Shown: piece by piece, positions 1 to 51,719 of the stretch
Layout of the letters: each line of letters begins with the position of its first letter
Position numbering within the stretch: the stretch's first letter is position 1
Assembly: GCA_030447925.1 (NCBI GenBank)
Contig: JAUJNX010000007.1
Coordinates: 186,001 to 250,000, forward strand
Length of the DNA stretch: 64,000 nt
Source of the DNA: Egibacteraceae bacterium
GTDB taxonomy: Bacteria > Actinomycetota > Nitriliruptoria > Euzebyales > Egibacteraceae
Reading direction: 5' to 3'
The notes under the pieces: generated by a model
What the model saw: only the letters and a program-made list of their open reading frames with translations
What the model was told of the DNA's origin: nothing
The model's database searches: none
Translations under genes and position numbers: made by a program

Positions 1-373
1 CGTCGTTGAAGTCCCCGACGACCAGCCCGTCGACGAAGGCGCCGCCCAGGGTCCGCGCCCCGTCCCAGAACCCGCGGCCGTCCTCCGGCTCCGCGGCGGG
101 CGGGGCGGCCGGCGCCGGTTCGCCGCCCGGGGCCGGTTCGCCGTCGCCCGCGGCGCCGTCGCGGGCGGCCACGTCCTCCCCGCCGGCGGGCGCCGGGCCG
201 CAGCCGGGACCACCGGTGACGCGGCACAGCGCCGTCGTCGCCCCCGTCGTGATCGCGGCGCCGATGCCCGACGCCGCCACCGCGGCCACGACCAGCGCGA
301 TGACGAGGAGGAGCCCCACGTACTCCGCGGCGGTCTGGCCCTCCTCGGGGCGCAGGCGCCGGCAGCTTCGCAT
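1..373 (-). CDS. Flp-type prepilin-leader protein, C-terminus beyond window edge
   Basis: The start is ATG at 373 and the gene runs off the left edge, so about 124 codons are visible. The first 12 residues are basic or charged and end in Gly, followed by QTAAEY and about 20 hydrophobic residues. This is the class III (Flp/type IVb) prepilin signature, with Glu at mature position 5 and Tyr at 6. After the membrane helix come two cysteines about eight residues apart, then a Pro/Gly/Ala/Glu linker with repeated GEPAP, then a new globular start (GFWDGARTLGG). The same order (leader, helix, Cys pair, linker, large domain) occurs in the Rhs protein at 46410-50444, whereas the true pilin at 41850 stops soon after the helix. 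I infer a membrane-anchored or pilus-exported multidomain protein; the effector part is not visible. Confidence 0.75.
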   Translation of the reverse strand, partial: MRSCRRLRPEEGQTAAEYVGLLLVIALVVAAVAASGIGAAITTGATTALCRVTGGPGCGPAPAGGEDVAARDGAAGDGEPAPGGEPAPAAPPAAEPEDGRGFWDGARTLGGAFVDGLVVGDFND

Positions 374-31945: not shown

Positions 31946-32995
31946 TCACTCGGTGAGGTAGACGTCGAACGTGGCGAAGCTGGCCGCGGTGCCCCCGAAC
32001 TGCTGGGCGTTGCTGAGCGTGCCCGCGTTGCCGCCGCACTCCCGGCCGGTGACGTGGGAGAAGTGCACGGCGTCGTTGGACGGCAGCGGCTGGCACAGCC
32101 CGATCCCGCGGCCGGCCGGGCTGTTCACGATCGCGGCCACGTCCTGGTAGTTCGCGACGTCCATGGCCAGGCCGAACCCGTGCATCGACCGCCCTGGCGG
32201 GGCGCACGGCCCCGACACGCGCTGGCACAGCTGTGCCTGGTACGCGGGCGTCCGGAAGCCGGAGCTGAGGTTCAGCGGCGTGCTGCCCAGCGCCTGCTCC
32301 AGCCGCAGGATCGAGGCCTGCATGGGGACCTGCATGCCGCTGACGGACACCCCCGGCTCGTTGCCCGTGCCGCAGTAGCGGCGCAGGGCGGACCCTTGGG
32401 GGACGTTGGGGATGCCGGCCGCCGCCGCCGCGGCGGCCAGTTGGGCCTCCGTCATGCAGGCCCCACCCCCGGACCGGGTACCGCCGCCACCCGACCCGCC
32501 GCCGCCCCCCGACCCGCCCGCGCCCGCGCCCGCGGGCCCGCCGCCGAACGTGAACGTCGAGGCGACGACCGCGCGCGCCTCCGCGGCACCACCCTGTCCC
32601 GCCGTCTCCTCCAGGCCGGCCGCCCCGTCCAGCAGCTCCTCGTCGCTCACCACCCGCACCCAGACCTCGACCTGCTCGGTGTCCAGCTCGAAGTCGATGT
32701 CCGCGAGGCGGCCGCCGTTGCGCCGGGCGTAGTCCCGGGCCGCGCCCTCCGCCTGCTCCAGCGAGATGGCGGACGGCTCGTTGAAGCCCGTGCGGATCAG
32801 GATCTCCTGCAGCTGCTCCTGCAGGTCGTAGCCCGCGGCCAGGGCCGCGGCGTCGGCCGCCGTGGTCGCCGATGCCTGGACGACCGTCGCCCGGCCCACC
32901 TGGAAGATCACGAACCCGGCGAACAGCAGGACGACCACCAGCTGCAGGAGAGCCGGCAGGATCTGGCCCTGTTCCCCTTCCCCGTGGGCGCGCAT
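31946..32995 (-). CDS. TadG-like pilin domain fused to M15 (VanY-like) peptidase
   Basis: The protein has 349 residues from ATG 32995. Residues 1-55 are TadG/TadE-like: a short charged start, EQGQILPALLQ, one hydrophobic helix, and ATTAADAAALAAG, typical of Tad pseudopilin/assembly proteins. A helical region to about 160 and a Gly/Ser linker follow. Residues about 180-349 are an M15B D,D-carboxypeptidase-like domain: SSGFRTPAYQAQLC, SMHGFGLAMDVAN (Zn ligands His and Asp), and VHFSH (catalytic or Zn His). The enzyme would be tethered outside the membrane and act on peptidoglycan, possibly opening the wall for the pilus. It is divergent from the Tad operon. Confidence 0.87.
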   Translation of the reverse strand: MRAHGEGEQGQILPALLQLVVVLLFAGFVIFQVGRATVVQASATTAADAAALAAGYDLQEQLQEILIRTGFNEPSAISLEQAEGAARDYARRNGGRLADIDFELDTEQVEVWVRVVSDEELLDGAAGLEETAGQGGAAEARAVVASTFTFGGGPAGAGAGGSGGGGGSGGGGTRSGGGACMTEAQLAAAAAAAGIPNVPQGSALRRYCGTGNEPGVSVSGMQVPMQASILRLEQALGSTPLNLSSGFRTPAYQAQLCQRVSGPCAPPGRSMHGFGLAMDVANYQDVAAIVNSPAGRGIGLCQPLPSNDAVHFSHVTGRECGGNAGTLSNAQQFGGTAASFATFDVYLTE

Positions 32996-36763: not shown

Positions 36764-38095
36764 ATGGCCCTGCGCGACCGGCTCAGCGACCACCGCGCCG
36801 CCCGCCGGGGCGACCCGGGGGAGGACGGCCAGGTCGCCCGCTACCGCCGGACGCTGCTGGAGGAGGTCGACCTCGACGAGCTCAGCGCCCTCAGCGAGCA
36901 GCAGCGGCGGGCGCGCCTGGAGCGCATCGTCGGGCACCTGCTCAGCCGCGAGGGCCCGCTGCTGTCGACCCTCGAGCGCAGCACCCTGATCCGCCGGATC
37001 GTGGACGAGGCCCTGGGGCTGGGCGTCCTGGAGCCGCTGCTGGACGACGAGTCGGTGACCGAGATCATGGTCAACGGGCCCGCGGACATCTGGGTCGAGC
37101 GCGCCGGGCGCCTGGAGCGGGTCGACACCCGCTTCGAGAGCGAGGCCCAGCTCTACCAGACCATCGACCGGATCGTCGCGCAGGTGAACCGCCGGGTCGA
37201 CGAGGCCTCGCCCATGGTCGACGCGCGCCTGCCCACCGGCGAGCGCGTCAACATCATCGTCCCGCCGCTCGCCCTGTCGGGTCCCACCCTCACGATCCGC
37301 CGCTTCCCGCGCGCCTACTCGATGGACGAGCTGGTCGACCTCGGCAGCCTGGACGAGACCGCGCGCCAGCTGCTGGGCTCGTGCGTGCGCGCCCGCTGCA
37401 ACGTGATCGTGTCCGGCGGGACGGGCAGCGGGAAGACGACGTTCCTCAACGCCCTGTCGGGCTTCCTGCCGCAGGGCGAGCGGATCATCACCATCGAGGA
37501 CGCCGCGGAGCTGCAGCTCCAGCAGCCCCACGTCGTCTCCCTGGAAGCCCGGCCGCCCAACGTCGAGGGCAAGGGCCGCGTCACCATCCGCGACCTGGTG
37601 CGCAACAGCCTGCGCATGCGCCCGGACCGCATCATCGTCGGCGAGGTTCGCGGCGGTGAGACCCTCGACATGCTCCAGGCCATGAACACCGGCCACGAGG
37701 GCTCGCTGGCCACCGTCCACGCGAACTCGCCGGAGGACGCGATCGTCCGGCTCGAGACGCTGGCGTCGATGAGTGAGGTGGAGATCAGCTTCGAGGCCCT
37801 GCGCGACCAGGTGAACAGCGCGGTCGACGTGCTCGTGCACCTGAGCCGCTACCCCGACGGGTCGCGGCGGCTGGAGGAGCTGGCCGTCGTGGCGTCCCAG
37901 CGGCGGGAGCCGTTCCGCCTCGCGCCCGTCGTGGTGTTCGAGCCGGAGGGGCTGGGCCCGGACCGCGAGGTGAGCGGCACCTACCGCTACCTGCCGCTCC
38001 CGCCGGCGCTCGAGCAGCGGCTCCGGCGCCGCGGCGAGGTCGTGCCCCCCGCGTTCCGGACGCGGCCGGTGCAGGCGCTGGGGACCGGGGCGTGA
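36764..38095 (+). CDS. tadA: Tad secretion ATPase TadA/CpaF
   Basis: The protein has 443 residues from ATG 36764, eight bases after GGGAGG. It is a type II/IV secretion-superfamily hexameric ATPase. Walker A is [15 protein letters not shown], Walker B is [15 protein letters not shown], and the His box is [15 protein letters not shown]. The N-terminal segment includes [21 protein letters not shown], typical of CpaF. It powers assembly (and possibly retraction) of the Flp pilus at the inner membrane face. TadB and TadC genes follow with overlaps. Confidence 0.95.
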
Positions 38096-39021
38096 CCCCG
38101 CTCGCCGCGATCGCCCTGGGGATGCTGGGGACCGCCGCGGTCCTGCTCGCCGGGCTGTACCAGTTCCACCAGGGATGGGCGCAGCGCAACGAGGCCGCTC
38201 GCCGCAGCCGCCTGGAGGCCGGGGAGGCGGCGGACCGCCGGCTGCGCGCCGCGCTCGACGCGCGGCTGCGCACCACACCCGCCGGGCGCGCGCTGGACCG
38301 GCGGCTGGCGGCCGCGGGGGTGGACAGCGGGCCCGCCGCGTTCCTCGGGGGCACGGTCCTCGTGGTGCTGACCGCGTACCTGGCCGGCGCCCTGCTGTTC
38401 GGCGGGTGGCCCGGCCTCCTGATCGGGGTCCTGGCGGCGCTCGCCCCGCTGCGCTGGCTCGACGCGCGCCGCGCGCGGCGGACCGCGGAGTTCGTCGCCC
38501 AGCTCCCGGAGGCCGCCCGGGTCATGTCCAACGCCTCGTCGGCGGGCCTGTCGCTGCCCCGGGCCATCGAGATGGCGGCCGCCGAGGTGGGCGAGCCGAC
38601 GGGCGATGTCCTCCAGCGCGTGATCGACGAGCTCCGGCTGGGCCAGTCCGTCGAGCTCGCGCTGGAGAACCTCGCGCGCCGCGCGCCCAGCCGGGAGGTC
38701 GCCGTGCTCGTCGCCACCCTGGTGATCCAGCAGCGCGCGGGCGGGGACACCGTGCGGGCGCTGCGCGACATGGCCGAGACGCTGGAGTCGCGCAAGGACC
38801 TCCGCCGCGAGGTGCGCACCGTCATGGCCGGTTCCCTGGCGACCGGCTGGATCGTCGCCGCGCTGGGGCTGGTGTTCCTGCTGCTGGTGAACCTCCTCAG
38901 CCCCGGCGTCCTGCGCGAGATGGCCGCCGACCCCTTCGGCCAGCTCGCCCTGCTGGTCGGCGGGGGCCTCTACGCGCTCGGCTTCGTGCTCGTCCGGCGG
39001 GTCACGAGGGTCGAGACGTGA
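38092..39021 (+). CDS. tadB: Tad membrane platform protein TadB
   Basis: The protein has 309 residues from GTG 38092 (overlap with tadA stop). A T2SSF-type platform domain is visible: LPEAARVMSNASSAGLSLPRA, ALENLARRAPSREVAVLVATL and QRAGGDTVRALRDMAETL, with hydrophobic helices at the N-terminus, near residues 95-120, and two at the C-terminus. TadB and TadC form the inner-membrane base on which TadA acts. The stop overlaps tadC. Confidence 0.92.
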   Translation: MTPLAAIALGMLGTAAVLLAGLYQFHQGWAQRNEAARRSRLEAGEAADRRLRAALDARLRTTPAGRALDRRLAAAGVDSGPAAFLGGTVLVVLTAYLAGALLFGGWPGLLIGVLAALAPLRWLDARRARRTAEFVAQLPEAARVMSNASSAGLSLPRAIEMAAAEVGEPTGDVLQRVIDELRLGQSVELALENLARRAPSREVAVLVATLVIQQRAGGDTVRALRDMAETLESRKDLRREVRTVMAGSLATGWIVAALGLVFLLLVNLLSPGVLREMAADPFGQLALLVGGGLYALGFVLVRRVTRVET

Positions 39022-39911
39022 ACCCGGCCCTGCCCGCGTTCGCGCTGGTCCTCTGCCTCGCCGGCGCGTTCGCCGGGGTGGCGCTCGTCCGCACCCTGCC
39101 GCCCGGCACCCGCCGGCTGCTCGACGTGGACCCCGACGACGCCGCGCCGGGGCGCCGGGTGCTCGCGGTCGTGCGCGAGCGCATCGGCGCGCGCTTCGCC
39201 CCGGTCGTCCTCGGCATCACCGGACCCCGCCGCGCCGCGCTCATCCAGCACCGGCTCGACGCCGCGGGCCGGCCCGGCGGGCTGACGCTGGAGGGCTGGG
39301 CGGGGGTCAAGGCGTCGGCGACCGCCCTGTCCGCGCTGGCCGGGCTCGCCGTCACCCTCCTGACCGGCAACCCCATCTGGGTCCTCGCCCTCGCGGCCGT
39401 GGGCTGGCTGCAGGTCGACCTCTCCCTCGCCCGCGAGGCGCGCCGCCGCCAGGCCCGCATCGACCGCGACCTGCCGGACTTCCTCGACGTGCTGACGGTG
39501 ACGGTGGGCGCCGGCCTCGGCTTCCGCACGGCGCTGGACCGCGTGGCCGAGGCGCTCGGCGGCCCGCTGGGGGAGGAGTTCCGCATCGCGCTGCGCCAGA
39601 TGGGCTACGGCGAGGGCCGCCGCGGCGCGCTCGAGGGCGTCCGCGACCGCAACGACTCCGAGGCGCTGCGGGAGTTCATCACCGCGCTCCTCCAGGCCGA
39701 GGAGCTCGGCGCCCCGCTGGGCGCGACGCTCAGCGACATCGCCCGCGACATGCGCAAGGCGTTCCAGCAGCGCGCCCGCCGCGACGCCGCCCGCGCGGCG
39801 CCGCGGGTGAGCCTGATCGTCTCGACCGTCGTGGTCCCGGGGGTCATCGTCTTCGTGCTGTCCGCGCTGATCATCGGCACCGACTTCGACCTGGGGGTCT
39901 TCGGTGGCTGA
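39018..39911 (+). CDS. tadC: Tad membrane platform protein TadC
   Basis: The protein has 297 residues from GTG 39018. It is a second T2SSF-type protein with DLPDFLDVLTVTVGAGLGFRTALDRV, ALLQAEELGAPLGATLSDIA and RKAFQQRARRDAARAAPRVS, plus a C-terminal helix. It partners TadB. It overlaps the sensor kinase gene by eight bases, so the regulatory pair is transcribed with the pilus machine. Confidence 0.92.
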   Translation: MNPALPAFALVLCLAGAFAGVALVRTLPPGTRRLLDVDPDDAAPGRRVLAVVRERIGARFAPVVLGITGPRRAALIQHRLDAAGRPGGLTLEGWAGVKASATALSALAGLAVTLLTGNPIWVLALAAVGWLQVDLSLAREARRRQARIDRDLPDFLDVLTVTVGAGLGFRTALDRVAEALGGPLGEEFRIALRQMGYGEGRRGALEGVRDRNDSEALREFITALLQAEELGAPLGATLSDIARDMRKAFQQRARRDAARAAPRVSLIVSTVVVPGVIVFVLSALIIGTDFDLGVFGG

Positions 39912-41849: not shown

Positions 41850-42077
41850 ATGCTCTACCTGCTGGCCCTCACCACCCTGCTGACCCGCACCACCGACCGC
41901 ATCCGCACCCGCCTCGCCGACGACCACGGCCAGACCGCCGCCGAGTACATGGGCATCATCGTGGTCGTGGCCATCATCCTCGCTGCCATCACTGCATCGG
42001 GCATCGGGGAGCAGATCAGTGGTTACGTCGGGAACGCGATCGACGACGTCTTCAACAACGCCGGCGGAGAGGGCTGA
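41850..42077 (+). CDS. flp: Flp family type IVb pilin
   Basis: The protein has 75 residues from ATG 41850, with GGGAGG seven bases upstream. A 27-residue leader ending ADDHG is followed by QTAAEYMGIIVVVAIILAA. Cleavage after Gly27 leaves a 48-residue pilin with Glu5 and Tyr6, the Flp hallmark. This is the likely major subunit of the pilus assembled by the Tad proteins upstream. The very strong ribosome site and separate 105-base leader fit high expression. The two larger Flp-leader proteins (left edge and 46410-50444) share this motif. Confidence 0.93.
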   Translation: MLYLLALTTLLTRTTDRIRTRLADDHGQTAAEYMGIIVVVAIILAAITASGIGEQISGYVGNAIDDVFNNAGGEG

Positions 42078-42122: not shown

Positions 42123-43391
42123 TCATACCGTGCGCCCGACGGGCGCGGGCCCTCCCCCGGGGACGCAAGGCGGCTGGAGGAGCGCTACGCCCTCCCCGTA
42201 GCGCTGACGGTAGCGTTCCTCCGCTTGCCGCAGCTCCTCTCGGAGGACGTCGACTTGCTCGGAGCGCAACGCGAGTAGGTCGTCCTGCCGTTGCAGATTG
42301 AAGGCCATGATGCGATCGGTCAGGTCAGAGACAGCTTGTCGCTCATCGCGGTTCTCATCTCGGTATTCCTGTAGCCACAGCTGAGCATCGACAGCCTGGC
42401 TCCGCACGCAGTTACCTGTCCTGGCCGTGTTACCCTGGATGCACACGATTGCGCTGAACAGCTCGCCTTGGCGTGCGATCAGTTCCTGGAAGTAGCTACG
42501 GAGTTGGTCGCCCGTGCTGGCGGTGGTGTAGGTGCCGCCGCTGGCTTCGGCGATCTGGCGCAGTGCAGCTTCTTCGGTGGTGTTGGCGATGTCGAAGCCG
42601 ACGACGTCGACGCGGATGGCGACGCCGGACTCCGCCAGGCGGCGGGCGGCGGCGACGGGGTCGCCGTCGCAGGTCTCCAGGCCGTCGGTGATGAGGATGA
42701 CGCGGTTGGCCTGTCCCTCGCGGCCGGCGAACTCCTGCCCGGCGCGGTCCAGTGCGCCCGCGATGGGGGTCCAGCCGGCGGGCTGGAGCTGGGCGAGGGT
42801 GGGGGTGACGTTGTCGGCGTTGAGCTGGCCCAGTGGCGCGAAGGTATCGATGCCGGCGCACGACTCGGGCCGTCCGGCGTCGGTGTTGTCGCCGCGGTGG
42901 CCGAACACGGTCAGCCCGACGGCGAAGCTGGCGGGGGTTGCGGTGACGTAGCGTTCCAGCGCGTCGCGGGCGGCCTCGATCTTGGTCCTGCCGGTGCCGT
43001 CGTCGCCGGCCATGGAGCCCGAGGAGTCCAGCACCAGCAGCGTGTTCTGCTGGGTGGTGACCGGGGTGCCGGGCAGGCCGGCGACCTCGGGGCAGCCCTC
43101 CAGGGCGCAGTCGTCGATCAGCGGGTCATAGCCCAGCTCGGTCTCCAGGAAGTCGGGGATGACGTTGCCGTCGCTGTCCTGGGAGAACCGCGCCGGCAGC
43201 GCCGGTGTCGGGCTGGGCACCGGCCGCGGCGACCGCGACGGCGACGGGGCGGGAGTCGGCGCCTCGGATTCGATCACCTCGGACGCAGGCGGCGACGGCG
43301 CGGCCGTGTCCTGGTCCCCGTCGCCGGTGCAGCCCACCACCACCAGCACCAGCACCACGCCCACCGCGCCTCGCCGCACCCCAACCCCCAC
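42123..43391 (-). CDS. VWA-domain lipoprotein (VWA-1)
   Basis: The protein has 422 residues from GTG 43391. A signal peptide ends in a lipobox (VVVGC, Cys near 21), then comes a Thr/Pro/Ser linker. A short Ca-binding-like motif QDSDGNVIPDFLETELG follows, with two Cys further on. The von Willebrand A domain has a complete MIDAS start (LVLDSSGSM), a DTFAPLG loop and RVILITDGLETC. The C-terminal helical domain has a Cys pair and long coiled-coil-like Gln/Glu/Arg helices; its DNA (42123-42540) is clearly lower in GC. It is a surface-anchored adhesin- or chaperone-like protein next to the pilin. A paralogue lies at 50541-51719. Confidence 0.83.
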   Translation of the reverse strand: MGVGVRRGAVGVVLVLVVVGCTGDGDQDTAAPSPPASEVIESEAPTPAPSPSRSPRPVPSPTPALPARFSQDSDGNVIPDFLETELGYDPLIDDCALEGCPEVAGLPGTPVTTQQNTLLVLDSSGSMAGDDGTGRTKIEAARDALERYVTATPASFAVGLTVFGHRGDNTDAGRPESCAGIDTFAPLGQLNADNVTPTLAQLQPAGWTPIAGALDRAGQEFAGREGQANRVILITDGLETCDGDPVAAARRLAESGVAIRVDVVGFDIANTTEEAALRQIAEASGGTYTTASTGDQLRSYFQELIARQGELFSAIVCIQGNTARTGNCVRSQAVDAQLWLQEYRDENRDERQAVSDLTDRIMAFNLQRQDDLLALRSEQVDVLREELRQAEERYRQRYGEGVALLQPPCVPGGGPAPVGRTV

Positions 43392-43706
43392 ACTCGCCCC
43401 GGACGACCACGATCGTAACGGATGCCACGGCCTCGTTCGTACCGCTTGCTAGCCTCTGATGACTTACAGTCCCCGCGCCGACCACCGGCCTCCACGCACG
43501 CGCCGACAGCCAGCGCGAAGGGGCAGGTGGTCGTCGAGAGTCGCATGCCGGCGACTGCGAGATCGATCCCTCGTACCCGCTCCATCCGCCACATGTCCCG
43601 TCGCTCGGGTGACTCCTGCTTAACGTCGGCCGAAGGACGGTTGTTGATCGACGGGCCAGTGTCTCCATGCAGAGCGGTCTGGGAGCTTGGACGGGAGGAG
43701 GTGCGG
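43392..43706. other. divergent intergenic region with lower GC
   Basis: This 315-base stretch separates the divergent VWA-1 and PH-like membrane protein genes. No believable ORF is present. It contains the expected promoter regions for both; the right end has a strong GGAGGAGG ribosome site (43694-43701) for the plus-strand gene. Confidence 0.5.
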
Positions 43707-44773
43707 ATGAACGGCGCGGTGTGGTCCACGCGGGCCGGGCGGGAGCGCGGGCGTTGCCCGTGCTGACCGCCGCCACCGGGGGGCTCCTGCTCGTCCTGGC
43801 GGCCGTGGGGCAGGTGCGGCCGGGGGACGAGGGCGAGCTGAGTGCGATGGCGGGGGCCATGCTCCTGCTTGCCCTGATCCTCGCCTGGCTCACGTGGCGG
43901 GCCCGCGCTTCCATCGGGCCCGACGCGCAGCTGCACGTCACGGTGGTCCGCCGGCGTGGCGTTGACCTCGGGCGCCTGCGGGAGGTGCGCATGGCGCCGG
44001 ACCGACTGGGGCCGCAGGTCCAGCAGGTGCAGTTCCGCCTGGTCGACGCCGACGGGTCCAGCGTGGAGCTGAGCTCGCGGGGGGTGTGGCAGGACGGGAC
44101 GCAGCTGTGGCGCAGGATCCGCGAGGCGGTGCTGTCCTCGAAGGTGCCGCTGTCCGAGGCCGCGCGCGACGGCCTGACGCTCCTGGCCGCCGACCCCCTG
44201 GGGCCGCCACCGGCAGCACCGCCCGATGAGGCGGAGCCGCTGCCCGCGTCGCCGTTGCGTGTGCGGCTGCGACCCTCCGCGCGGCTGTTCGGGGTGGGGT
44301 CGTGGGGTGGGGTCGTCGCGCTGCTCGTCCTGTCCAACCTGTTGCGGCGGTTCGGGGTCGGGGGCTCGGACGCCGTCGTGCCGCTGCTCATCGGGGCTGC
44401 CTTCACCTTCGGTCTGCCGTACCGGCTCCTCGGCCGCCACGCGACGCTCACCCCGGACGGGGTCCTCCACGTCGACGGCCTCCTCGGCCGCCGGGTCGTC
44501 GCTCTCACCACCGTGCGGGCCGTGCGGCTGGAGCCCGACGCACCGGCCCTGTCGGCGGGACCGCCGGTCGGGACGCGTTGGCAGGAGGTCCGCTTGGTCC
44601 TCAGCGACGACGCGGGCCGCAGCGCCGCGCTTGACCTGGCCAACCATCTCGGCCCGGCGCGGGTCCTGTTCCCGCGCATCCTCACCGCCGCCCAGCGCGC
44701 GGGCGCGCGCCTGGAGGGTCACGCCGGTGCCGAGCTGCGCTTCCTCGCGGGCGCACCGGAGCGCGCCCGCTGA
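43707..44773 (+). CDS. duplicated two-helix/PH-like membrane protein (one apparent frameshift)
   Basis: ATG 43707 follows GGAGGAGGTGCGG, but after 19 codons the frame ends; adding one base near 43750 joins it to a long frame for about 355 residues. The protein is two similar halves. Each has a hydrophobic helix pair, then a beta-rich PH-like unit: VRRRGVDLGRLREVRMAP with LWRRIREAVLSSKV in the first, and GRRVVALTTVRAVRLEP with FPRILTAAQRAG in the second. The same pattern recurs in the single-unit proteins at 45374-45919 and 45916-46413, which follow the Rhs gene. I infer a family of candidate immunity proteins. If the frameshift is an illusion, a GTG at 43721 could start the long frame. Confidence 0.62.
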
Positions 44774-45373: not shown

Positions 45374-45919
45374 TCAGGCGCCCCACTCCGCTGCTCCGCT
45401 GCGGCCCGACATGAACGCCAGCTCCCGCCGGACGGTGTCGCTGAGCTTGACCTCGGCTGCGTCCGCCGCATCAAGCAGGAGACCGAAGAGCGTTGCAGGT
45501 CGGCTCCAGTGACCTGAGAGGGGAAGACGGACCGTCTGGCGGCTGTCGTGCAGGACGATGGACGGGGCCGTGACCCCCCCGATGGCGGGTACCCGGGAAC
45601 CGGTTGGGCTCGCGTAGAACGGCTGGTCAGGGTCGAGTCGGACCTGCGAGAGCTTCGTGAGGTCCAAACGGGTGGCACCTACGAGACGGTCCATGATGAG
45701 GATGCCGTCCGATTCGATCCGGAGACGGAGCCTGAGACTCCGGATCATCCACAGCAGGTTGAGCAGGAGTGCGGCCGCCAGTAGGACTTCAACCGCGGTC
45801 TCGTACGGCTCGGGGATGAGGTTGCCGATGACGAAGGCGTAGGGGAGAACGAGGTAGGTGCACCGAACAATGGTCAGCAGCACGACATACCCCGTGAGCT
45901 GGCGTCCCGAGTAGGTCAT
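45374..45919 (-). CDS. two-helix/PH-like membrane protein, candidate immunity protein 2
   Basis: The protein has 181 residues from ATG 45919, overlapping the previous stop by ATGA. Two hydrophobic helices lie at about residues 10-30 and 40-58, followed by a soluble beta-rich part with LRIESDGILIMDRLV, TRLDLTKLSQVRLDP and a C-terminal helix LFGLLLDAADAAEVKLSD. The pattern parallels its upstream neighbour and both halves of the protein at 43707. It is the third gene of the Rhs operon. GC content is lower than elsewhere. Role as immunity protein is inferred from order, coupling and composition. Confidence 0.72.
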   Translation of the reverse strand: MTYSGRQLTGYVVLLTIVRCTYLVLPYAFVIGNLIPEPYETAVEVLLAAALLLNLLWMIRSLRLRLRIESDGILIMDRLVGATRLDLTKLSQVRLDPDQPFYASPTGSRVPAIGGVTAPSIVLHDSRQTVRLPLSGHWSRPATLFGLLLDAADAAEVKLSDTVRRELAFMSGRSGAAEWGA

Positions 45920-46413
45920 TTCTCGCTCAGGCGGGCCAGGACGGTCTGGGTGACTCCCGACACGATCACGTCCGATCGCTGCACGCCTTCTTGCACGTAC
46001 CGCCACAACTCCGCCCTCGGAACCCACGACCACTGCTCATGCAGGTCGACCGACGCGCCACTGTCGTCCACGAGCGTCAAGTGGTACGAGGCTGTCTGCG
46101 CCCGGTACCCCTCCGGCAGGATGCGTACGTCGGAAAGCCGGTTGAGGTTCACGCGGTCCTCGCCGAGGACCCGCACAACAAGGTCGCCGTTCTCGAGCAC
46201 GAACGCGCGCACGCGCCTGATGATGAACAGCACGACGGAAGCGACGACAAGGAGGATGATTCCACCCCATACGAACTCGTCCTCGTCGCCCGGTGCCGCG
46301 AAGCCCGTCCGGCCAACCACCAAGCTCAGGACACCTATCAGGGCGGGCAACGCTGGCCAGATGAGTGCGGACGGCCCCAGCTTCGCCTCCAGCACCGGAT
46401 GGTCGTTGTTCAC
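45916..46413 (-). CDS. two-helix/PH-like membrane protein, candidate immunity protein 1
   Basis: The protein has 165 residues from GTG 46413, which overlaps the Rhs stop codon (GTGA), so translation is coupled to the Rhs gene. Helices LIWPALPALIGVLSLVV and GIILLVVASVVLFIIR are followed by FVLENGDLVVRVLGEDRVNLNRLSDVRILPEG, LTLVDDSGASVDLHEQW and a final helix LWRYVQEGVQRSDV. Rhs toxins are normally followed immediately by their immunity gene; a membrane protein would fit a membrane-acting toxin tip. It is less GC-rich than flanks. Family unnamed as far as I know. Confidence 0.74.
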   Translation of the reverse strand: MNNDHPVLEAKLGPSALIWPALPALIGVLSLVVGRTGFAAPGDEDEFVWGGIILLVVASVVLFIIRRVRAFVLENGDLVVRVLGEDRVNLNRLSDVRILPEGYRAQTASYHLTLVDDSGASVDLHEQWSWVPRAELWRYVQEGVQRSDVIVSGVTQTVLARLSEK

Positions 46414-49400
46414 TTGATGGTGCCCGAAGTCACGGGATTCGTCTCGTCGAACAGCGCGTTCGTGAGTGCACCGGCAATGGTCCCACGGGTGACTCCGATA
46501 TAACTCTCGACCCCGACGACGGCCCGCTCTGACATTCCTGGTGCGACCTCCCGTCCACCGATCACCATCGGTGCCCTCACCGCGTTCCCTACCCATGTGC
46601 CGAATGCGCCCAGTGCGCCGGCCGTGACGATCTTCGTGAGCCCTTCCCCAGGGTTCCACGGCTCTCGGTCGATACCCCACTCGACCACCTGGCCGACGGC
46701 GTTGCTGGCCGCGGCGATCCCGGCACCCTGTGCCACTGTGACCGCTCCGGCTCCGAACACACCGAAGCTACCGATCGCCGCTCCCACCAACGCCCCCTCG
46801 GTCACCGCACCCGCGAACCCACCCCATGTCGGTTCTTCGCCCGTCATCGCCTGACTGCCGAGGTACGCGATGGCGTTGATCCCCGCGCCCAACGCGGCTC
46901 CGCCAAGGATGGTGGCGCACCAGGGGCAGGCGCCGGTGGGGTCGGTGTGGGTGGTGGGGTTGTTGAAGGCGTAGGCGTAGGTGCTGGTGTAGGGGAGGGT
47001 GGTGGGGTGGGCGGCGGGGTCGACCTGGTGGAACTGGCCCAGGGACGGGTTGTAGCGGCGCAGGCGCAGGTCGTACTGGCCGGTGGTGGGGTCCTGGTGC
47101 TCGCCGGTGAAGCGCAGGGAGGGGTCGGGGGTGCCGGGTGCCAGTTCCTCGGCGGCGCGGGTCTCGCCGAAGGGGGTGTAGGCGAAGCTGCGGGCCAGGT
47201 CGCCGCCGGGGCCGGAGACCGCCAGCGTGCTGCGCAGCGCGTCGGTGTGAAGGTAGCCGGTGGCCCCGCCCTGACGGGTGGCGACCGTGCCCAGGCCGAG
47301 GTCCAGGACGTGTGACCGGCGCGTGCCGTCCGGGCGGTCCTCGGTGGCCAGGCGGGGGAGGGGCGCGTTGGGGTCCCACTGGTAGCTGGTGACCCCGTCC
47401 GCGAACTCCGCCGACGTCAGCGTGCCTCGGCCGTCGTAGGCGTAGTCGACGGTGGCGCCGGCGGTCGTCACGCTGGTGAGCCGGCGCGACAGGTCGTAGG
47501 TGTAGGTGCGGGCGCCATCGGTGAGCAGGTTGCCGGCCTCGTCGTAGCGGTACTCCGCCGTGCCCCCGGGACCCGCGGTGGCGAGCAACCGGTCGTCCAG
47601 GTCGTACCGGTAGGTGGTCGTGCCGTCCGGTCCCTGCTCGCGCAAGCGGCGGCCCGCCTCGTCGTAGGCCCACGCGTGCCGCTCCGTGCCGCCGCCCGCG
47701 GCGGTGCGGACCGCCTGGGTCAGCCGGTCGAGCTCGTCGTACCGGTAGCGGGTCGTCTCGCCCCCGCGGCGCTCGACGAGGGGCTTGCCGACCGGGTCGC
47801 GCTCGTACGCCACCTCCGCGACGGGCCCGACCGGGCCGCCCGTGGCGATCCTGGTGACCCGCCCGGCCGCGTCGTGGTCGGTCCGGGTGACGGTGCCGTT
47901 GCCCTGCACGGCCTCCTGCAGCAGGCCCGCGGGGTCGTAGCGGTAGGCGGCGCTGACCGGACCGCTGGTCAGCTCGGCGAGGCGGCCGTCCGCGTCGTAG
48001 GCGTACCGCGTGGTGCCGGCGCCGGGGACGGTGCGCTCGACCAGCCTGCTCGAGCGGTCGTAGGCGTAGGTGAAGGTGGGGCGGTCGCGGGCGACCTCGA
48101 CCAGCCGGTCCAGGTCGTCCCAGCTGTAGGTCTCGGTGCCCAGCGCGTCGGTCATCGCCGTCACGCGGCCGGCCGCGTCGTAGGCCAGGCCGACGTCGGG
48201 GGTGGCGTCGGCGAAGTCGATGCGGGTCGTGCGCCCGCGCTCGTCGTGGTCCAGCTCGATCCGGGCCGGCCTGCCGTCCACCGTCCGCGGGTCGACGACG
48301 GCGGCCAGGGCGCCGTTCCGGTCCCACTCGTAGGACCACCGCCGGCCCTCCGGGGTGACCACCTCCGCCAGCCGGTTGGCGCCGTCGTAGCCGTAGCGGG
48401 TGACCGCGCCGTTGGCCGCGGTGCGCGCCACCAGGTTGCCCGCGGGGTCGTAGGCGTAGCGGGTTCTGGTCCCGTCGGGCGCCACCACGGCGGTGAGCCG
48501 GCCCATCACGTCGTGCTCGTAGCGGGTGCCCCGCCCGGCCGCGTCGACCTGCTCTACCAGGCGGCCCGGCGCGTCGTAGCGCGACCGCGTCGCCGCGCCG
48601 AGCGGGTCGACGACCTCGGTCACCCTGCCCGCCGGGTCGTGGGCGAACCGGGTGGTGAACGCGTCGCGCGCGGCGCCCGGGGCCGTGCCCCTGGGGTCGA
48701 CGACCGCGACGAGGTTGCCCGCGTCGTCGTACCGGCGCTGCGTGGTCGCGCCGCCGGGCGTCGTCGCCGAGACCAGGCGACCGGCGGCGTCGTAGCCGAG
48801 GCGGGTCGTGCGCCCCTCGGCATCGGTGACGGCGGTCGGCCGCCCCGGCGGCCCGTCGTAGGCGAGGCGGGTGGTGCTGTCCTCCGGCGCGTCGACCCGC
48901 AGCAGGTTGCCCGCGGCGTCGTAGGTCATGGTCACCCGCCGGCCGAGGGCGTCGACGTGCTCGATCGGCCGGTCCAGCGCGTCGTAGCGGAACCGGTCGG
49001 TGGGCTCCTGCCCGCCGGGCGGCGTCACCGCCAGCAGGTTGCCGCGGGCGTCGTGGTCCAGGCGCGTCACGCCACCGTTCGCGTCGGTCACCGACACGAC
49101 CTGGAGCTGCTCGTCGTAGCCGTACGTGACGGTGCTGCCGTGGGGGTCGATGCGGCGGACCAGCGCGCCCTCGCGGTACACGTCGGTCCACGCCGATCCG
49201 CGGGCGTCGAACATCGTGGCGGTCAGGGTGCCGCGCACCTCGTCGGTGACGAAGCGGGTGCGGCCCCCCAGCCCGTCGACCTGCTCCACGACGCGGCCGC
49301 GCCGGTCGTAGCGGTTGGCGACCACGACCTCGCCCTCGGCATCGCGCAGCTCCGCCAGCCGGCCGGCGCGGTCGTAGCGGTAGGCGACCTCGTCCCCCGC

Positions 49401-50444
49401 GGGACCGGTGACCTTGGCGAGCAGGCCGTCGCGGTAGGCGTAGCGGACGGCCCGGCCGTCGGGGACGCGGACCTCGACCAGGCGGTCGCCGTCGTAGGTG
49501 AAGACGGCCTCGCGGCCCGTGGGGTCGGTGACGCCCGCCAGGCGCCCGCCGTCGTAGCGCAGCGCGAGCGCCGTGCCCGTGGGCTCGGTCACGCGCAGGA
49601 GTCGGCCCCCGCGGTCGAAGGCGAGCACGGCGCCGCCGCGGCGGCGCAGCTCGTACCCGCCGTCGGCGGCCCGCAGCTCCGACCGGACCCCCGCGTCGGC
49701 CCGGAACGCCTCGCCGTCGCGGACCCAGCCGTACCGCCGGCCGCCCTCGGTCACCAGGACCGCCCGGTCGCCGTCGACCTCCAGGCGCATGGCGTAGGCG
49801 TGGGTCCAGCCCCGGCCCAGCGGGCCCTCGTGCTCGTCGTCGGAGCTGTAGGAGCGGGCGAGCGCGAAGGCGGGGCTGAGGCCCGGCAGGGCCAGGTCCG
49901 TAGCCGAGGACACGAACGCCCCGGTGTAGGAGTTGACCGGGTCGCTCTGCTCGCCGGTGGGGTCGACCCCGTCGGCGTCGGGTCCCGTGCCCGGGCCGGT
50001 CGACCGGTCGTCGGGGGCGCCGGGGCCGGGCGGGTCGACCGTGCCCTCGACGAGGTCCTCGTCCACCGACCCGTCCGCGTCGCGGCCCTCGCTGGCCGGT
50101 CCGCCGCCGGCCGGTCCGCCGCCGCCCTCGCCGCCTTCGCCCCCTCCGCCGCCCGGACCGCCGGGTCCCTGAGGGTCCCCGCCGTCCCCGCCGTCCCCGC
50201 CCGGTCCCCGGGGGTCGGCACCGGTGCCGTCCGCGCCGGGCCCTCCCGCCACGTCGGCGGGGCAGTCCGTCCCGCCCCCCGCCCGGCAGTACGCCGAGCG
50301 CAGGCCCGCGGTCAGGGTCGCGCCCACCTGGGACGACGACGCCACCACCGCGGTGACGATCACCACGACGACCACCAGGACGCCGAGGTACTCGGCGCTG
50401 GTCTGACCGGCCTCCCGGCGCACCGCGCGGTGCAGTCTGGACAT
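46410..50444 (-). CDS. Rhs/YD-repeat protein with Flp-type prepilin leader and variable C-terminal tip
   Basis: The protein has 1344 residues from ATG 50444. Residues 1-13 (ending REAG) precede QTSAEYLGVLVVVVVIV, a class III prepilin leader and helix. Then come Cys residues (YCRAGGGTDC), a Gly/Pro/Asp-rich linker to about residue 165, a DUF6531-like start (DPVNSYTGAF), and over 30 YD repeats (RYDxxGRL type) to about 1165. The Rhs-associated core ends YNPSLGQFHQVDP...DPTGACPW. The last ~173 residues are hydrophobic, Gly/Ala-rich with repeated helical segments, and the DNA there drops in GC. YD repeats form a cocoon around the toxin tip; here export would depend on a pilin-type signal, unlike known T6SS, TcC or Sec-linked Rhs proteins. 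Confidence 0.9.
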   Translation of the reverse strand: MSRLHRAVRREAGQTSAEYLGVLVVVVVIVTAVVASSSQVGATLTAGLRSAYCRAGGGTDCPADVAGGPGADGTGADPRGPGGDGGDGGDPQGPGGPGGGGGEGGEGGGGPAGGGPASEGRDADGSVDEDLVEGTVDPPGPGAPDDRSTGPGTGPDADGVDPTGEQSDPVNSYTGAFVSSATDLALPGLSPAFALARSYSSDDEHEGPLGRGWTHAYAMRLEVDGDRAVLVTEGGRRYGWVRDGEAFRADAGVRSELRAADGGYELRRRGGAVLAFDRGGRLLRVTEPTGTALALRYDGGRLAGVTDPTGREAVFTYDGDRLVEVRVPDGRAVRYAYRDGLLAKVTGPAGDEVAYRYDRAGRLAELRDAEGEVVVANRYDRRGRVVEQVDGLGGRTRFVTDEVRGTLTATMFDARGSAWTDVYREGALVRRIDPHGSTVTYGYDEQLQVVSVTDANGGVTRLDHDARGNLLAVTPPGGQEPTDRFRYDALDRPIEHVDALGRRVTMTYDAAGNLLRVDAPEDSTTRLAYDGPPGRPTAVTDAEGRTTRLGYDAAGRLVSATTPGGATTQRRYDDAGNLVAVVDPRGTAPGAARDAFTTRFAHDPAGRVTEVVDPLGAATRSRYDAPGRLVEQVDAAGRGTRYEHDVMGRLTAVVAPDGTRTRYAYDPAGNLVARTAANGAVTRYGYDGANRLAEVVTPEGRRWSYEWDRNGALAAVVDPRTVDGRPARIELDHDERGRTTRIDFADATPDVGLAYDAAGRVTAMTDALGTETYSWDDLDRLVEVARDRPTFTYAYDRSSRLVERTVPGAGTTRYAYDADGRLAELTSGPVSAAYRYDPAGLLQEAVQGNGTVTRTDHDAAGRVTRIATGGPVGPVAEVAYERDPVGKPLVERRGGETTRYRYDELDRLTQAVRTAAGGGTERHAWAYDEAGRRLREQGPDGTTTYRYDLDDRLLATAGPGGTAEYRYDEAGNLLTDGARTYTYDLSRRLTSVTTAGATVDYAYDGRGTLTSAEFADGVTSYQWDPNAPLPRLATEDRPDGTRRSHVLDLGLGTVATRQGGATGYLHTDALRSTLAVSGPGGDLARSFAYTPFGETRAAEELAPGTPDPSLRFTGEHQDPTTGQYDLRLRRYNPSLGQFHQVDPAAHPTTLPYTSTYAYAFNNPTTHTDPTGACPWCATILGGAALGAGINAIAYLGSQAMTGEEPTWGGFAGAVTEGALVGAAIGSFGVFGAGAVTVAQGAGIAAASNAVGQVVEWGIDREPWNPGEGLTKIVTAGALGAFGTWVGNAVRAPMVIGGREVAPGMSERAVVGVESYIGVTRGTIAGALTNALFDETNPVTSGTIK

Positions 50445-50540: not shown

Positions 50541-51719
50541 TCAGACCCGCATCGCGGTGCAGCGCCAGGGGCCGAGCGCGCCGCGCCGGGCCACTGTCCG
50601 CGCGCCGGGGGCGGCGCTCGACCGGCGCTCGCCCGTCCCGGGCAGGCCGGGGAGCACGGAGCGCGCCTGCGCGCTCCCGGCCGCGTGGTCGGCGATGGCC
50701 TGGTCGAGCGCGTCGAGCGCGGCGACCCTGCTCGGGTCGCCCTCGGACCGCGCCCGCTCCTGCTGGACGCGGTCCCGGGCGGCGCGGGCCAGCTGCTCGT
50801 CGCAGTCGGCCGCCTCCCCGGCCTGCTCCGCCCGGCACAGCGACGCCTCGAGGAGGAGGCGCTGCTCGGCCAGGATGCGGTCCAGGGTCCAGGCCAGCAG
50901 CTCCTCGCCGCCGCCGACGCGCGCGTAGGCGCCCCCGGTGGACCTGGCGGCGGCGCGGAGGACGTCCTCCTCGGGCCCGCCGGGCGCCACGCCGACGCCG
51001 ACCACGTCCTCGGTCGTGCCCGCGGCCGCCAGCGCCGCGGCCGCGGCGCCCACGTCCCCGCCGCAGACGTCGCCGCCGCCCGCGAGGACCAGGACGTGGG
51101 CGGCGGCGCCGGTGTCCGGGGCGGCCGCGTGGAGGTCCCCCGCCGCGGTGAGCGCGGCGGCGAGCGCCGCTCCGGTGCCCGCGGCGACCTGTCCGAGGGC
51201 GGCCTCGGCCGAGTCCGGCGAGAACGCTCCGAGGTCGGCGCGGACCTCCGGCGCGGCGCAGCTCGCCCCGCCCGCGACCGCTTGGCCGGCGACGACCAGC
51301 CCGAGCCGGCGGTCGGGTGACGCAAGGGCCGCGTACTGGGTCAGGGCGAGGCGCGGCGGGTCGGTCTGGCCCGGCCCCGCCGGCCCGCCCGCCGCCGACG
51401 CGTCGAGCACGACCACGGTGTCCAGCGGCGCGTCGCCCGGCACGCGCACGGTGCCCTCGACGGCGCTGGGGCAGGGGACGGGGGCGCAGTCGTCGGCGAG
51501 GGGGTCCCGGCCCAGCTCCTGCTCGACGAAGTCGGGCACCTCGTTGCCGTCGCTGTCCTGGAGCCAGCGGGTCTCCAGGCCCTGGCCGGTCACGGCGGCG
51601 GTGGTCGCGACCGCGCCGACCGGCTCCTCCGGGGCGGCGCGGCCCGTGCAGCCCGCCGCGAGGAGCAGCGCGGCCAACCCGCCCGCGACCCAGCGCGGCG
51701 CACGCCCCGAGCCGACCAC
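50541..51719 (-). CDS. VWA-like lipoprotein with degenerate MIDAS (VWA-2)
   Basis: The protein has 392 residues from GTG 51719, with AGGAGGTGAAGG upstream. The signal peptide ends LLLAAGC (lipobox). It shares with VWA-1 the motif QDSDGNEVPDFVEQELG, a following Cys pair and the overall VWA order, but the MIDAS DxSxS is replaced (VVLDASAAGG), so metal-dependent ligand binding is probably lost. The C-terminal helical region keeps the paired Cys seen in VWA-1. It lies between the Rhs gene and the PASTA pseudokinase, all on the minus strand, and may be co-transcribed with the kinase. A divergent paralogue, intact. Confidence 0.8.
   Translation of the reverse strand: MVGSGRAPRWVAGGLAALLLAAGCTGRAAPEEPVGAVATTAAVTGQGLETRWLQDSDGNEVPDFVEQELGRDPLADDCAPVPCPSAVEGTVRVPGDAPLDTVVVLDASAAGGPAGPGQTDPPRLALTQYAALASPDRRLGLVVAGQAVAGGASCAAPEVRADLGAFSPDSAEAALGQVAAGTGAALAAALTAAGDLHAAAPDTGAAAHVLVLAGGGDVCGGDVGAAAAALAAAGTTEDVVGVGVAPGGPEEDVLRAAARSTGGAYARVGGGEELLAWTLDRILAEQRLLLEASLCRAEQAGEAADCDEQLARAARDRVQQERARSEGDPSRVAALDALDQAIADHAAGSAQARSVLPGLPGTGERRSSAAPGARTVARRGALGPWRCTAMRV

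Follow-up and report, generated by a model that had tools for sequence, protein, structure and literature searches.

The closest described idea to the arrangement considered here is that of the 'adaptable tips' of Kil/Tad pili. In the accounts of the Kil system of Myxococcus, a Tad pilus is required for contact-dependent killing, its minor-pilin tips are exchangeable, and a similar customising of Tad pili elsewhere is proposed (PMC12075869, PMC8460266). The toxicity of these tips is proposed to be either associated with them or inherent (PMC12075869), and Kil-associated tips are reported to be restricted to Myxococcota (PMC12075869; PMC8460266). The text of PMC12075869 does not mention Rhs, and in the 2012 survey of polymorphic-toxin trafficking (PMC3482391) the word 'pilin' does not occur in the first 300,000 of 354,187 characters. 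In the open literature, mostly at the level of titles and abstracts, we found no report that brings together Rhs, a Tad pilus and polymorphic toxins, and nothing closer than Kil. This agrees with the original prediction for the locus analyzed here, whose author knew of no described system with such a leader.

The locus lies in a stretch of 64,000 nucleotides, referred to below as the window, from a draft genome (27 contigs) of a member of the Nitriliruptoria (Actinomycetota). One open reading frame in the window, for which we found the same limits, strand and start as had been predicted, encodes a protein that begins like a prepilin and continues as an Rhs protein. This protein, referred to as leader-Rhs, is composed of the following parts:
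46410..50444, minus strand: leader-Rhs, whole coding sequence, 1344 aa, ATG at 50444, stop at 46410-46412
50406..50444, minus strand: class III leader, residues 1-13, with a putative cut after G13
50262..50405, minus strand: helix resembling that of pilins, with E at +5, and Cys pair C53 and C61 (the N-module)
49950..50261, minus strand: linker rich in Gly and Asp
49731..49943, minus strand: DUF6531 (E 2e-20)
47181..49595, minus strand: YD/RHS repeats, limits approximate (RHS repeats E 2e-119)
46932..47180, minus strand: Rhs-associated core (TIGR03696, residues 1089-1171, E 3e-18), ending in DPTGA
46413..46928, minus strand: C-tip, 172 aa, hydrophobic and Gly-rich, beginning CPWC, with no family match

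The N-terminus reads MSRLHRAVRREAG^QTSAEYLGVLVVVVVIVTAVVA (RREAG^QTSAEY and a hydrophobic helix, with ^ marking the predicted cut) and thus has the prepilin-type succession of a short basic leader up to G-1, E+5 and a hydrophobic helix. At 1344 aa, leader-Rhs is not the small subunit that an Flp major pilin would be, and a separate Flp of 75 aa is encoded in the locus. The remainder is that of an Rhs protein, with YD repeats and an Rhs-associated core. The core with its DPTGACPW end had been predicted correctly, while the predicted number of YD repeats, more than 30, was too high if only those that are individually significant (about 21) are counted. When compared by sequence with the solved Rhs proteins of type VI secretion systems (T6SS), the best match of leader-Rhs was to 7q97 (E 3e-56). 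An N-terminal PAAR or VgrG domain was not among its Pfam and NCBIfam matches, nor was an LXG or WXG domain among its Pfam matches. The C-tip matched no toxin family, and indeed no family at all, in Pfam and NCBIfam. AF2 modelled the Rhs ectodomain poorly (pLDDT 56), and the position of the C-tip cannot be read from the result. A CxxC motif (CPWC or CPFC) directly follows the Rhs core in 4 of 5 C-tips of this group, in the present protein from residue 1173 (46914-46928, minus strand). The same genome also holds a second Rhs-repeat stretch (L010, G000:C20, 5280-7080) with interrupted frames and a transposase-like gene nearby, which is probably an Rhs remnant without a leader.

Leader-Rhs is encoded next to a Tad locus, as had been predicted. 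From their sequences, we take the products of this locus to be CpaB/SAF-like, CpaE-like and TadE-like proteins, TadA, TadB, TadC, a histidine kinase, a response regulator and Flp. The genes used in the analysis, together with two lipoprotein genes, are:
36764..38095, plus strand: TadA ATPase, backed by search
38092..39911, plus strand: TadB and TadC, recognised from sequence
41850..42077, plus strand: Flp major pilin, 75 aa, N-terminus DDHG^QTAAEYMGIIVVVAII, N-module profile match E 2e-10
42123..43391, minus strand: VWA-domain lipoprotein beside flp (E 5e-11), DxSxS motif present
50541..51719, minus strand: lipoprotein directly upstream of leader-Rhs, paralogous to the VWA lipoprotein but having lost its MIDAS motif

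The two lipoproteins are 34% identical (E 3e-31). The search for prepilin peptidase domains in the genome gave a single one, which contig C15 encodes (PF01478, E 3e-16). Another TadA of this subtype (68% identity) lies in a Tad-like locus of its own in this genome (G000:C26:168682-169956), and no large leader protein was found near it in the stretch examined. Elsewhere in the window, the gene at 31946-32995 (minus strand) encodes a TadE/G-like N-terminus (PF13400, E 1e-6) joined to a D-Ala-D-Ala carboxypeptidase domain like that of VanY (E 6e-4, below cutoff), and its product is possibly a Tad-linked cell-wall enzyme.

Searches among relatives, first with DUF6531 and subsequently with a profile built on this region, yielded five close Rhs homologues in the class (G034, G039, G004, G059 and G061). 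The genes of G059 and G061 are truncated by contig ends, and the three with an intact 5' end begin with RAEAG^AISAEQVAIIVVVAALV (G034), RREAG^VSTAEYVGAISLVALV (G039) and RDERG^SLSMEYVGVVVVVMVLV (G004). The Rhs gene adjoins a Tad locus in all five genomes in which this was scored (the present one, G034, G039, G004 and G059). A wider scan of 84,980 species genomes, performed with two short peptide patterns and therefore not exhaustive, added Rhs homologues from other phyla and other actinobacteria (Kribbella, Chloroflexota, Deltaproteobacteria and others), and among the 36 of these that entered the count, none (0/36) had an N-terminal class III leader when scored by regular expression. G-1 together with E+5 is thus present in 4/4 of the intact proteins, the present one included, versus 0/36 elsewhere (Fisher p 1e-5). 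The likeness of the leader to that of the neighboring Flp, which had been pointed out in the original prediction, is therefore beyond chance. Many of the distant Rhs homologues have N-termini that, judged by eye, are Sec-signal-like. The same is true of the G065 Rhs protein, where no Tad genes were found on its 12-kb contig. Close homologues with the same YD core thus keep the leader, which is absent only from more distant Rhs proteins that, where checked, are not linked to Tad. Based on the named contigs (Euzebyales bacterium MGR_bin271 and Nitriliruptoraceae bacterium CSSed162cmA_288), the leader-Rhs group is placed in the Nitriliruptoria.

If the C-tip is a toxin, an immunity gene would be expected downstream, and the following genes are candidates:
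45916..46413, minus strand: candidate immunity gene 1, two TM helices and a tentatively assigned PH-like domain, GTGA overlap with the Rhs stop
45374..45919, minus strand: candidate immunity gene 2, a paralogue of gene 1, ATGA overlap with gene 1
43667..44773, plus strand: fused two-unit paralogue of both candidate immunity genes (E 2e-19 and 2e-11)

The Rhs gene and both candidates are thus joined by 4-nt overlaps. The Rhs cores are 37-62% identical between homologues, while the C-tips align well only within two pairs, the present protein with G061 (30%) and G034 with G059 (55%), the G061 C-tip being weakly similar to those of G034 and G059 over its first part. The downstream gene families split along the same lines. 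The genes at 45916, 45374 and 43667 form one family (E 1e-5 to 1e-19) that is common to G061 (E 4e-6), G034 and G059 have a different membrane protein in common (E 5e-20), and the membrane proteins of G039 contain a bPH_6 domain (E 6e-11 and 7e-10). In an AF2 model of one candidate immunity protein (pLDDT 72), a small beta domain comes after two long helices, and PH domains are among its fold matches in the PDB, none of which reached E<=0.001. The PH-like assignment is thus firm only for G039 and should be regarded as weak for the genes in the window. The co-variation of C-tips and downstream genes, together with the overlaps, is the pattern of a toxin-immunity cassette. As the candidate immunity proteins are membrane-bound and the C-tip is hydrophobic, the target of the C-tip may be the membrane.

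Leader-Rhs does not stand alone but belongs to a modular family, a point on which the original prediction needs correction. In ten aligned N-termini, G-1 and E+5 are invariant and a Cys pair is found about 40 and about 48 residues past the predicted cut. A profile built from the aligned N-modules was searched in 397 Actinomycetota genomes and matched further large leader proteins with E down to 1e-22. Of 39 large actinobacterial N-module proteins, every one has E or D at +5, 38 keep G-1 (with the rows of G034 and L178 read by eye, and L177, which has A, as the exception), and 38 contain two or more Cys. Within the class, 11 genomes have a TadA of the subtype found here (66-71% identity). In four of those that lack Rhs (G006, G026, G028 and G058), another large leader protein is encoded in or beside the Tad locus, and none was found at the Tad locus of G002 on the 9.5-kb contig examined. 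At six Streptomyces-like Tad loci (20-33 kb each), the stretches examined held no Rhs or HINT leader protein, and G164, of the same group, has its leader proteins elsewhere.

The clearest case is the leader protein of G028, encoded downstream of the Tad locus, where the leader and linker are followed by PT-HINT (E 3e-12) and RNAse_A_bac (PF18431, E 1e-27), the RNase A domain of bacterial CdiA-CT. The next gene, which overlaps this one as GTGA, encodes a CdiI_2 immunity protein (PF18593, E 2e-10). Judging by their families, the two are a polymorphic toxin, headed by a prepilin-type leader, and its immunity protein. The G026 leader protein also has PT-HINT, with a tip of no recognised family. 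The one of G164 contains Tox-REase-5 (E 7e-19) and has an Imm52-like neighbor (E 0.002, below the curated cutoff), and a plasmid search with this Tox-REase-5 protein gave no match. A second leader protein of the present genome (L168, G000:C5, about 185-186.4 kb) begins in the window:
1..373, minus strand: start of the second leader protein, EEG^QTAAEYVGLLLVIALVV (QTAAEY and Cys pair), found with the N-module profile

Its remainder, before the window start, holds PT-HINT (E 3e-13) and Ntox24 (E 1e-9), and a small gene with no Pfam match follows. The frame of this gene is broken in the assembly and continues in another frame, either by decay or by sequencing error, and its pieces were searched separately. 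Several known toxin families thus occur behind the N-module, and for one of them an immunity partner was recognised. The toxin/immunity architecture of these sister proteins is well supported, while that of leader-Rhs itself is plausible. Other cargo behind the N-module consists of enzymes according to Pfam: Peptidase_C2 calpain (G039 and G095), GDSL lipase (G393), Abhydrolase_8 (G028, G039 and G164) and the putative metallopeptidase DUF6782 (G039). As the calpain, GDSL lipase and alpha/beta hydrolase are plausible surface enzymes, they might be displayed instead of injected. For some of the cargo, such use of the carrier to display surface proteins or enzymes is an alternative to be taken seriously. 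Two further kinds of cargo were noticed. A beta-rich domain of about 400 aa, with no Pfam match where tested, recurs in more than 10 leader proteins (L107, L108/L109, L119, L114, L132/L133 and several of L169-L194). Another cargo carries a YLQYW.YYP...DDWES-like motif (L186, L189, L201 and L205), with no Pfam match for L186 and L201.

These results should be weighed against other readings of leader-Rhs. One of them accepts the leader and its assembly by Tad as real but takes the protein to be an adhesin or surface receptor at the pilus tip, with an Rhs shell that binds or is structural and a C-tip that serves as a membrane or plug segment. The C-tip without a toxin match would suit this reading, as would the beta-rich domains and enzymes on other N-module proteins and the VWA lipoproteins in the locus, which would fit an adhesive tip, and modular adhesive pilus tips are described (PMC12075869). 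However, conserved cores with sharply divergent C-tips and downstream genes that change alongside them are the pattern of polymorphic toxins and their immunity proteins. The 4-nt coupling of the Rhs gene to the downstream genes, and recognised toxins on sister proteins, one of them with a recognised immunity protein, point in the same direction. We thus consider an adhesive tip unlikely, yet worth keeping in mind.

The leader might also be a plain transmembrane anchor of a surface protein, with a pilin-derived likeness and a route that no longer involves the Tad machine. This should be considered together with the distribution of large leader proteins, which at E<=1e-6 were found in 16 of the 397 genomes. 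Many of their genes are distant from tad genes, as such an anchor would allow. One leader-protein genome, G363, gave no TadA match in a fragmented assembly, which also suits a plain anchor. The original prediction expected leader proteins to occur together with Tad genes, and TadA (E<=1e-95) was indeed found in 15/16 leader-protein genomes. However, TadA is widespread in the phylum (216/397), and co-occurrence with any TadA (p 7e-4, uncorrected for kinship and thus optimistic) is by itself modest evidence, so that we put the weight on synteny, motif and TadA subtype. The TadA subtype of the window is found in 12/16 leader-protein genomes versus 26/397 overall (p 6e-13) and, when the genomes used to build the profile are omitted, in 4/8 versus 18/389 (p 2e-4), both p values again being optimistic in that kinship is uncorrected. 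G-1 and E or D at +5, the residues on which processing and assembly of prepilins depend, are kept in 38/39 and 39/39 proteins, respectively, which would be unexpected for a plain anchor. The subtype association and the Tad locus that adjoins 5/5 Rhs homologues also speak against it. Such an anchor is therefore improbable. Finally, an ordinary Rhs protein with an N-terminus that only resembles a prepilin, or a misassembly of this draft of 27 contigs that joined two genes, has nothing else in its favor and was rejected as extremely improbable, as the join is repeated in four genomes and the N-module heads many other cargo proteins (E down to 1e-22).

We therefore favor, with some reservation, the reading that leader-Rhs joins a carrier resembling a Tad minor pilin to a polymorphic-toxin cage that is displayed or delivered. 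The hydrophobic helix would place the protein in the membrane with its N-terminus in and its C-terminus out. The prepilin peptidase would cut after G13, leaving Q1...E5, and TadA/B/C would assemble the protein with the Flp pilus. The tip is the simplest position in the pilus, as an ectodomain of 1300 aa would not pack along the shaft. This ectodomain consists, according to the sequence matches, of DUF6531 and a YD shell that closes with the Rhs-core motif. In known Rhs proteins, this motif self-cleaves and retains the C-tip inside. Upon contact with a neighboring cell, the C-tip would be released into it, possibly to act on the membrane, and the translationally coupled downstream membrane genes would, judging by gene architecture, protect the producer and its kin. 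Surface display is as possible as delivery, and the C-tip could be toxic or inert. The predicted Tad-dependent surface or delivered polymorphic toxin thus gains support in part: the leader is conserved and tied to Tad, and sister proteins have toxin domains with adjacent immunity genes, while leader cleavage, Tad dependence, delivery and toxicity of leader-Rhs itself are inferred.

A broader proposal should be regarded as tentative, albeit one with real prospects. Actinobacterial Tad pilus machinery may constitute a toxin delivery machine, in which interchangeable cargo (Rhs cages, HINT-released nucleases, proteases and lipases) is attached to the pilus, probably at the tip, by the dedicated module of class III leader and Cys pair, while pilus movement carries this cargo to or into neighbors and cognate immunity genes accompany it. 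There is a fair chance that the leader-Rhs family represents a class of its own in the trafficking of polymorphic toxins. These toxins and Tad pili, which we did not find joined in the open literature, would then come together. This would provide monoderm actinobacteria with a pilus-linked toxin route and would assign a role to large leader proteins near Tad loci, with G-1, E or D at +5 and the Cys pair as a sequence handle for finding more. The question of whether Tad pili carry effectors, which the accounts of Kil leave open, would become directly testable.

Compared with known systems, leader-Rhs shares a homologous YD shell and Rhs core with the T6SS Rhs toxins (PDB 7q97, 8h8a and Tse5; E 3e-56 to 1e-46), as well as a variable C-tip and a downstream candidate immunity gene, but in place of an N-terminus of the PAAR/VgrG type it has a class III leader, and its gene is syntenic with Tad genes. 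WapA-like wall-associated YD-repeat toxins are found in monoderms, have a variable C-terminus and take the Sec route. Leader-Rhs is likewise a YD-repeat protein with a variable C-terminus in a monoderm, but with a prepilin-type leader beside tad genes. Minor pilins of the TadG/TadE type resemble it in their class III-type N-terminus, larger ectodomain and location in Tad loci, and TadG is said to have a modular C-terminal domain. The N-module differs from theirs, however, in its Flp resemblance and nearly invariant Cys pair, and in that the cargo belongs to toxin or enzyme families. Kil and the adaptable Tad tips also involve a Tad-type pilus and minor pilins that are processed by prepilin peptidase and expose large variable C-terminal domains. 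As described in the literature, the Kil tips are heterotrimers tied to a needleless T3SS*, whereas the leader proteins are single actinobacterial polypeptides in which the leader is joined to Rhs, HINT, RNase A, Ntox24 or Tox-REase-5.
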